Shown here piece by piece: positions 22,518-23,758 of a stretch of DNA of 27,953 bases; within the stretch, counting starts at the first letter, position 1, and each line of letters begins with the position of its first letter. Both the position numbers and the translations under genes were made by a program. Source of the stretch: a virus. The DNA lies in IMG/VR virus record IMGVR_UViG_3300034789_000697, positions 1 to 27,953 of that record; one strand, 5' to 3'. The notes under the pieces were generated by a model. It ran no database searches. It was not told the origin of the DNA and worked only from the letters and a program-made list of their open reading frames with translations.

Positions 22518-22531
22518 TTTGTCTTCTTACT

Positions 22532-22702
22532 ATGGACCCAGTTAAAATATTACTTCTACTATCTGAATTAGAAGGCAGTTCTGCTCATTTGGGCAACTTG
22601 GGTTTTGAAGAGGACAAAGAAGTTCTTAACGAAATGAAGGGTAGGTACTACAAACTATACTTCAAACTCTGTAAAGAACAAGGGAGAAATCCCTACGGAT
22701 AA
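22532..22702 (+). CDS. Small helical protein between tRNA genes (56 aa)
   Basis: ATG 22532 encodes 56 residues (MDPVKILLLLSELEGSSAHL at the start, then KGRYYKLYFKLCKEQGRNPYG). The TAA stop is immediately followed by the first base of tRNA-Asn, so the gene exactly fills the space between two tRNAs. No clear ribosome site. Amphipathic helices and the tight fit support a real gene, but its function is unknown. Confidence 0.6.
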   Translation: MDPVKILLLLSELEGSSAHLGNLGFEEDKEVLNEMKGRYYKLYFKLCKEQGRNPYG

Positions 22703-22774
22703 TCCTCTGTAGCTCAGCGGTAGAGCCGACGACTGTTAATCGTCTGGTCGCAGGTTCGAATCCTGCCGGGGGAG
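22703..22774 (+). tRNA. tRNA-Asn (GUU)
   Basis: A 72-base cloverleaf: acceptor TCCTCTG/CGGGGGA with two G-T pairs, anticodon loop CTGTTAA on GACGA/TCGTC, T-arm GCAGGTTCGAATCCTGC and discriminator G. No CCA is encoded. Confidence 0.95.
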
Positions 22775-22796
22775 TTAGGAACTTGAGACGTTCCAA

Positions 22797-22994
22797 CCAA
22801 GGTGCTCATCGGTTCGGATATACCGAAACCCTGTAGGTGAGGGTAAACCCCCTTGGATATTCACAACGGAAATTGTGTCTTACTCCATTACAAACTGTCA
22901 GAATGTTGGGTTGAGTGCCCCGTCCTCAATCAGGCGCTTGGTTGAGAAACACATTCGGATAAGTGTAATGTATTATATAAGACCATGGAGTAAT
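22797..22994 (+). ncRNA. Structured RNA candidate within the tRNA cluster
   Basis: No ORF fits here, yet pairings are dense. Module 1: CCAAGG 22797-22802 with CCTTGG 22851-22856 encloses CTCATC/GGTGAG (805-810 with 836-841) and GGTTCGG/CCGAAACC (811-817 with 823-830, one bulge). Next comes CACAA/TTGTG (862-866 with 873-877). Module 2: TTACTCCAT 22880-22888 pairs perfectly with ATGGAGTAA 22985-22993 over about 100 bases, enclosing GGTTGAG/CTCAATC (909-915 with 925-931). It resembles in position the stable RNAs C and D of the T4 tRNA region. The manA RNA motif known from marine phages is another candidate; I could not test either. Confidence 0.5.
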
Positions 22995-23001
22995 CCTAAA
23001 C

Positions 23002-23021
23002 TACAGGTTGGTTCACCTGTA
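23002..23021 (+). other. Seven-pair hairpin just upstream of tRNA-Thr
   Basis: TACAGGT (23002-23008) pairs perfectly with ACCTGTA (23015-23021), three bases before tRNA-Thr. With no T run it is likelier a processing or stability element than a terminator. Confidence 0.5.
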
Positions 23022-23023
23022 TT

Positions 23024-23096
23024 GCCTCCGTAGCTCAGCTGGTAGAGCAGGTCTTTTGTAAAGATCAGGTCGCAGGTTCAAGTCCTGTCAGAGGCT
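23024..23096 (+). tRNA. tRNA-Thr (UGU)
   Basis: A 73-base cloverleaf: acceptor GCCTCCG with CAGAGGC contains one C-A mismatch at the sixth pair. Anticodon loop TTTGTAA, T-arm GCAGGTTCAAGTCCTGT, discriminator T. No CCA is encoded. The last base is also the first T of a TTGACA promoter box. Confidence 0.92.
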
Positions 23097-23124
23097 TGAC
23101 AATCTGAAATGATTGTTATATTAT
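23096..23124 (+). promoter_or_regulatory. Sigma-70-type promoter upstream of tRNA-Gly
   Basis: TTGACA (23096-23101), 17-base spacer and TATTAT (23119-23124). The predicted transcript begins near 23131 and starts with a CATCC/GGATG hairpin (23130-23134 with 23142-23146), followed by the perfect palindrome at 23151-23166, before tRNA-Gly. Confidence 0.65.
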
Positions 23125-23172
23125 AGGTTCATCCGTGTGAAGGATGTGTCTGGGGATTAATCCCCACCACCT

Positions 23173-23244
23173 GCGGGTGTAGTTCAGTGGTAGAACGTCA
23201 GCCTTCCAAGCTGAATGTCGTCGGTTCGAACCCGATCTCCCGCT
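23173..23244 (+). tRNA. tRNA-Gly (UCC)
   Basis: A 72-base cloverleaf: acceptor GCGGGTG with CTCCCGC has one T-T mismatch. Anticodon loop CTTCCAA on TCAGC/GCTGA, T-arm GTCGGTTCGAACCCGAT, discriminator T. No CCA is encoded. Confidence 0.93.
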
Positions 23245-23268
23245 TTCTGGTTAACCGTAAAACCAGAA
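23245..23268 (+). terminator. Hairpin closing the tRNA cluster (possible terminator)
   Basis: TTCTGGTT (23245-23252) pairs perfectly with AACCAGAA (23261-23268) directly after tRNA-Gly. Only a short T-rich stretch follows, so termination may be partial. Confidence 0.45.
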
Positions 23269-23279
23269 TTTATACCTAG

Positions 23280-23287
23280 TATAAATA
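23280..23287 (+). promoter_or_regulatory. T4-type late promoter (TATAAATA)
   Basis: A perfect octamer upstream of the porin-like gene. The predicted start near 23293 gives a leader of about 100 bases, the longest in the window. Confidence 0.8.
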
Positions 23288-23291
23288 TTAC

Positions 23292-23369
23292 ACCTTTTGA
23301 AGATTTACAACAAAAGGTAACAACAGGGAGTTGTCGATTCCCTTTCCATCTGCGGGTAATCATTCCGCA
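23292..23369 (+). promoter_or_regulatory. Structured 5' leader with three consecutive hairpins
   Basis: ACCTTTTG/CAAAAGGT (23292-23299 with 23311-23318) sits at the predicted 5' end. AGGGA/TTCCCT (23325-23329 with about 23339-23343) and TGCGG/CCGCA (23351-23355 with 23365-23369) follow. The ribosome site GAGG and ATG 23393 lie after the last hairpin. A 5'-terminal stem of this kind protects ompA mRNA in E. coli from RNase E; the same purpose is inferred here. Confidence 0.55.
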
Positions 23370-23392
23370 AGTAAAAAACGAGGTTTAAACAA

Positions 23393-23758
23393 ATGATCAA
23401 ATCTGTATTCGCAGCAACTGCTGCTCTGTCTATGTCCGCAGGCGCTGCCCTTGCAGGTCCCTACGTCAACGTGGAAACGAATGCCGGTTGGGTAGGCGAC
23501 GATTATTCCGGAGCAACCACAGATCTTCATATTGGCTATGAAGGAGAAGTTGGTGCTGCCGCATACTACGTCCAGGCGGGTCCAGCAGTCGTTTCTGTTG
23601 ATGGTCAAGAGTCCGAAACTCAATTCTCTGGTAAAGCAGGTCTTGGCGTTCCCGTTAGCGATGCTATCGGAGTGTATGGAGAAGTTTCCTTCCTGACTGC
23701 AGACGATAAGGATGATCTGGGTCTTGGCGGTAAGTTGGGTGTTAAGTACAACTTCTGA
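23393..23758 (+). CDS. Porin-like outer-membrane beta-barrel protein (121 aa)
   Basis: The signal peptide MIKSVFAATAALSMSAGAALA is likely cut after A21. The mature part has alternating strands (PYVNVETNAGWVG; TDLHIGYEGEVG; AAYYVQAGPAVVS; SGKAGLGVPVS; GVYGEVSFLTA) and ends KLGVKYNF. The terminal aromatic Phe is the outer-membrane assembly signal. At about 100 mature residues it would be a small barrel of about eight strands. It would act in the host outer membrane, where it could change permeability or block superinfection. It has its own late promoter, structured leader and strong terminator. Confidence 0.8.
   Translation: MIKSVFAATAALSMSAGAALAGPYVNVETNAGWVGDDYSGATTDLHIGYEGEVGAAAYYVQAGPAVVSVDGQESETQFSGKAGLGVPVSDAIGVYGEVSFLTADDKDDLGLGGKLGVKYNF

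Follow-up and report, generated by a model that had tools for sequence, protein, structure and literature searches.

A covarying structured RNA without an Rfam match in the tRNA arrays of cyanophages

The spacer between tRNA-Asn and tRNA-Thr in a 27,953-base virus record with cyanophage genes (the window, meaning the whole stretch of DNA analysed) encodes a non-coding RNA of about 196 nt with conserved limits at 22776-22971, and compensatory changes across its homologs indicate that its fold is real. From these homologs we could establish the fold, the limits, the modularity and, at the sensitivity used, a phage-only distribution of this RNA, which is a new family among the structured phage RNAs of tRNA arrays. 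We predict, with a probability of about 0.6, that it is a stable, tRNA-processed RNA of the phage that acts in trans, similar to T4 RNAs C and D or to GOLLD and ROOL; the main rival is a function in cis that serves the tRNA array. The window also encodes a ribonucleotide reductase, a 6-phosphogluconate-dehydrogenase-like protein and a member of a cyanophage outer-membrane-protein-like family, and in the phage collection the reductase is nearest to that of S-SKS1 (86.7%).

The sequence-only reading of this DNA had described the spacer as free of open reading frames, which is correct (249 nt with no listed ORF of at least 60 amino acids), and had argued from a nine-pair stem joining 22880-22888 to 22985-22993 that long-range complementarity exceeds chance. 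The stem does exist, and no other Watson-Crick stem in the spacer is longer, but a perfect stem of at least nine pairs also arose in 26 of 200 dinucleotide shuffles of the spacer, so the argument from chance does not hold. Single-sequence folding energies were unremarkable against shuffles as well, with z values of -1.43 for the whole spacer, -0.99 for the three-stem module and -1.62 for 22866-23000. As neither the stem nor the energy goes beyond chance, homologs were needed to decide, and in these the nine-pair stem is not conserved. Its 3' partner is missing in homologs in which the next tRNA follows 1-4 nt past the 3' domain, and among five copies that keep the downstream module two are like the window at this stem (L095, L180), one retains six pairs (L031) and two have it broken (L176, L225). 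The 3' strand of the stem belongs to a separate module that is also found after manA RNAs.

For the RNA type present in the window (class A) we aligned 65 distinct copies of 144-199 nt and scored a structure of 55 pairs on them, drawn partly from a mutual-information scan of the same sequences. Paired cells amount to 92.6%, and 24 of the 55 pairs changed on both sides compared to 5-10 in slid controls. The covariation score was 0.241 versus 0.118 in shuffles (0/500 as high), with slid partners reaching at most 0.058, while one of five covariation measures, the number of further pair types, did not exceed the shuffles (463/500 as high). In the mutual-information scan the Watson-Crick partners of P3, P4 and P5 rank top. 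Thus, the comparison for compensatory changes that had been proposed earlier came out positive, and covariation across homologs is what decides in favour of a structured non-coding RNA in the tRNA cluster. The three-stem module noted before at 22797-22856 corresponds to P2/P3/P3a of the covarying fold (Table 1); the originally proposed extent of 22797-22994 omits the 5' hairpin. The optional hairpin P7 reads CCCAAUC/GAUUGGG in L002 in alignment A1. A candidate pseudoknot may form between GG of the P4 loop and CC at 22848-22849, although its best pair (76-102) forms in only 36 of the 65 sequences (GC:25, AU:11) and is unpaired in 29, which include the window's own subgroup. A coding function was rejected, with stops in all three frames in 45/65 homologs, one stop-free frame in the other 20/65 and lengths that leave every possible remainder on division by three. 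The ORFs annotated across this RNA (Syn1_196, SSM2_176, AEZ65634) overlap tRNA or RNA and are apparently artefacts.

Table 1: Features of the RNA and its neighbourhood in the window.
Feature	Position	Strand	Evidence or remark
tRNA-Asn(GTT)	22703..22774	+	ARAGORN; end 3 nt upstream of P1; distance rule across homologs
Whole RNA, class A	22776..22971	+	model R1, 169 bits, sole match in window; 65-sequence alignment
P1, hairpin GGAAC/GUUCC with invariant UUGAGA loop	22778..22794	+	97.8% of cells paired; GC/CG and AU/GC exchanges
P2, encloses P3 and P3a	22797-22802/22851-22856	+	covarying fold
P3	22805-22810/22836-22841	+	5/6 pairs changed on both sides; mutual-information pairs 34-68 and 33-69 in the P2/P3/P3a module
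P3a	22811-22817/22823-22830	+	both-side changes in 4/7 pairs
P4, hairpin	22862-22866/22873-22877, outer pair 22859-22880	+	5/6 pairs changed on both sides; 100% of cells paired
Linker, part of conserved UACUCC	22881..22885	+	near-invariant in alignments A1 and A2; junction of class A/class B 5' domains
3' domain	22886..22970	+	four 3' domains identical between class A and class B
P5	22886-22891/22965-22970	+	both-side changes in 4/6 pairs
P5b, near-invariant	22894-22899/22958-22964	+	
P5c	22902-22905/22952-22955	+	pair 133-193 UA:32, AU:30
P6	22908-22912/22916-22920	+	
P7, optional hairpin CUCAAUC/GGUUGAG	22925..22946	+	alignment A1; in some homologs, not most rows
Separate 3' module	22982..23021	+	exact hairpin core also after manA RNAs, class C RNAs and bare tRNA-Arg
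tRNA-Thr(TGT)	23024..23096	+	ARAGORN; downstream neighbour of the RNA

Homologs are confined to phages in everything that we searched. BLASTN with the spacer gave 41 phage records, of which 33 are cyanophage-named and 32 contain the RNA; the 33rd, S-CREM2, matches with the terminal hairpin alone, and the other eight records show short matches in Gordonia, Listeria and Campylobacter phages and an ssRNA phage. A core-pattern scan of IMG/VR returned at least 119 stretches and places the RNA at more than 100 sites; among the matches listed, 132 pattern places divide into 87 of class A, 31 of class B (see below) and 14 unclassified, the latter being four chance matches and ten truncated or variant copies. 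Model R1 detected a single copy in 12 of 13 cyanophage records tested (none in S-CREM2) and in 26 of 42 IMG/VR records. Carriers are spread across Kyanoviridae, Aurunvirus and Llyrvirus. No exact pattern match was found in 84,980 bacterial and archaeal species genomes, a search that would miss diverged copies, and none in plasmids. The distribution is patchy: 32 records have the RNA, compared to at least 437 records named as cyanophages that have a similar NrdA, so that it is dispensable for most cyanophages. One copy (L209, near 11491) combines a class A 5' domain with a shortened 3' end and is probably decaying.

Flanking tRNAs or a promoter-like element set the limits of the RNA. In 73 of the 89 class A copies with at least 90 nt of upstream sequence, P1 is preceded at a distance of 1-3 nt by the end of a tRNA, and the remaining 16, some of them near-identical relatives, carry a sigma70-like TTGnnn-N17-TATAAT-like element, always 10 nt upstream of P1 (in L229 this placement was made by eye, as the regular expression chose another offset). 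For class B a tRNA lies within 4-5 nt upstream in 27 of 29 copies and the other two (L105, L122) follow an apparent tRNA relic. Downstream, a tRNA starts 1-4 nt past the RNA in 76/86 class A and 28/28 class B copies. As the types of the neighbouring tRNAs vary (eight upstream and nine downstream for class A), the RNA is a unit that is not tied to one tRNA. In S-N03 and MA10 (L002, L003) we noticed a tRNA-Val-like sequence 3' of the RNA that ARAGORN does not call.

According to the reading that we prefer, the RNA would be transcribed together with the tRNAs, its 5' end would be freed by 3' maturation of the upstream tRNA or made directly from an own promoter, and its 3' end would be released by the RNase P cut at the downstream tRNA, giving a stable product of about 145-200 nt. 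Most likely, in our view, this product would act in trans during infection: its 3' domain (ACUGUCAG...GGAUAAGU), which hardly varies, would bind a component of the host, e.g. a protein or the ribosome, and its 5' domain would tune specificity. The same packing could also be expected for a cis-acting element of the tRNA operon, serving as processing aid, protection of the polycistronic tRNA transcript or antiterminator without a separate function in trans: the RNA is always co-directional with the tRNAs and packed against them, it comes first after the promoter-like site in the 16 class A copies mentioned above, and unrelated RNAs (manA and class C, see below) occupy the same slot. We nevertheless consider it rather unlikely, since the RNA is absent from most cyanophages, conservation of its loops and of P5b would exceed the needs of a spacer hairpin, and it sits in the middle of the arrays with on average 1.9 tRNAs upstream and 2.1 downstream (n = 68), which rules out a leader or antiterminator position as a general rule. 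A riboswitch-like cis-regulatory element of a downstream protein gene, corresponding to the types that Rfam assigns to manA (Cis-reg) and wcaG, is very improbable because tRNAs and not ORFs come next in the class A and B copies counted above. An exception is found in S-TIM5 and S-TIM54 (L010, L007), where petE directly follows the RNA and a local cis effect is therefore possible.

Comparison with known RNAs supports the earlier suggestion that the RNA might be something new, as it matches no Rfam family. At gathering thresholds Rfam recognises only tRNAs in the window, and of the weak matches remaining at E values up to 10 in 22519-23400 none falls inside 22776-23022; tRNA, tmRNA, RNase P RNA and group I introns gave no match to the RNA with ARAGORN and the Rfam models. 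Among the closest analogues is manA (RF01745), which has a similar length, likewise occurs in cyanophage tRNA arrays and in several IMG/VR copies shares the 3' module of the window, but differs in sequence and fold. The manA-type identity considered before fails by covariance model, although manA RNAs fill the same kind of slot: the RF01745 model (at least 55.2 bits) found nothing in the window, in 12 class A/B phages or in 26 class A/B contigs, while 4/4 manA phages and ten manA contigs matched as controls, and conversely model R1 did not match these ten contigs or four phages. The manA RNA has been described from potential 5' UTRs of metabolic or photosynthesis genes (PMC2864571), a location that does not apply here, as 104 of 114 class A/B copies are followed by a tRNA within 1-4 nt. 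The cyanophage RNA wcaG (RF01761) is present elsewhere in some carrier phages, and its model matched neither the window nor the homologous sites. GOLLD and ROOL are likewise structured phage RNAs often near tRNA islands but are much larger than class A homologs (about 660 to more than 800 nt) and form nanocages; their models gave no match at E values up to 10, and with homologs of 144-199 nt the RNA stays far below 660 nt.

T4 RNAs C and D are stable RNAs of unknown function encoded in the tRNA cluster of phage T4. Like them, the RNA is encoded among the tRNA genes of a phage and has no ORF, and no T4 record is among the 41 BLASTN matches of the spacer. In the open PubMed Central literature, at the level of titles and abstract beginnings, we recognised no description of the RNA. 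The accessible portions of the S-CREM2 (PMC10665884) and S-SCSM1 (PMC9602691) papers mention no RNAs other than CFrI, wcaG, PhotoRC-II, glnA or manA. For the S-CREM1 paper (PMC9964418) they are manA, wcaG, glnA and abiF.

Class B combines a different 5' part, consisting of three hairpins of which two have complementary loops, with the 3' domain common to class A. Four 3' domains occur unchanged in class A and class B, so the 5' domains have been exchanged. The loop-loop pairing of class B (UAACCA/UGGUUA) is conserved and shows no covariation. Both classes also bear on the idea of an antisense or base-pairing sRNA that would use the open segments (UUGAGA loop and UACUCC linker) on phage or host mRNAs. 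The linker could pair with the Shine-Dalgarno sequence GGAG, it is near-invariant and outside of helices in class A together with the P1 loop, and class B repeats a UGAG loop and CUCC; however, helices and internal loops account for most of the conservation, which would be unlike typical base-pairing sRNAs and makes this idea quite improbable to us. In L017, near 10300, the 5' half of a tRNA-Leu apparently runs straight into a class B RNA, with the join at GTAGACGGTGC looking like the result of a deletion, and in L105 and L122 a promoter-like site is followed by an apparent tRNA 3' half and then by the class B RNA.

A further structured RNA between cyanophage tRNAs, which we call class C and which is unlisted in Rfam, was observed in L014 (1362-1490), L240-L248, L134, L137-L139, L148, L149, L160 and L163. 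It has 27 predicted pairs, 11 of them with changes on both sides, and one copy gave a weak fragment match in Rfam at E values up to 1 as the only similarity. Together, classes A/B and class C add two families beyond Rfam 15. Like class C, manA also sits between tRNAs; in S-CREM1 (L239:702-916) tRNA-Leu lies 2 nt before its start and tRNA-Asn directly at its end, and its context there, in L236-L238 and in L136 and L155 is that of an RNA belonging to the tRNA array and not that of a 5' UTR. Its presence in the same kind of slot calls the cis-regulatory label of manA into question. Phage tRNA arrays repeatedly yield structured RNAs of unknown function, as already seen with T4 RNAs C and D, GOLLD and ROOL.

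The separate 3' module appears as a mobile unit of two hairpins, one of GNRA/UUCG type and the other CAGGUUGGUUCACCUG, observed after manA, class A, class C and a bare tRNA-Arg. In the window its hairpins are GGA-GUAA-UCC (22987-22996) and UACAGGU-UGGUUC-ACCUGUA (23002-23021), and further occurrences are in L136, L151, L155, L171, L014, L146 and L152, the last with two tandem copies. The hairpin core is present in 52 IMG/VR stretches, some of which are chance matches in coding sequence, and manA matches directly precede the module in L136, L141, L143, L151, L155 and L171 (IMG/VR). Pairing of its loop UUGGUU with an upstream CCAACC would be possible in the window and in class C and is absent in some manA copies, as judged by eye.

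We compared 68 records, 26 from phages and 42 IMG/VR contigs, of which 38 have class A/B, 16 class C and 14 manA; none of them, each picked by one class and the contigs being fragments, contains two of the classes together. For frequencies of 32 (A/B), 17 (C) and 5 (manA) among at least 437 records about two overlaps are expected by chance, so that mutual exclusion is not proven and these counts are suggestive only. We tentatively propose, as a possibility with the odds against it, that a single-copy slot in the cyanophage tRNA array holds any one of the structurally unrelated class A, B, C and manA RNAs for the same host-directed job, e.g. decoying or inhibiting a factor of the host that attacks tRNAs or translation. 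If this were true, manA would be misfiled as a cis-regulatory element, and the shared 3' module and the swaps of 5' domains would represent cassette exchange under selection by host defence. Class A/B, class C and manA all occur in cultured phage-host pairs, which makes their function testable in Synechococcus; Syn1, S-SM2 and S-PRM1 are among the carriers of class A, and Sf-CH5 and S-SKS1 among those of class B.

Directly 3' of tRNA-Thr, in 23096-23172, the window contains a promoter-like TTGACA-N17-TATTAT and then a hairpin-rich stretch before tRNA-Gly, and in L106 and L224 tRNA-Thr likewise precedes a similar stretch.
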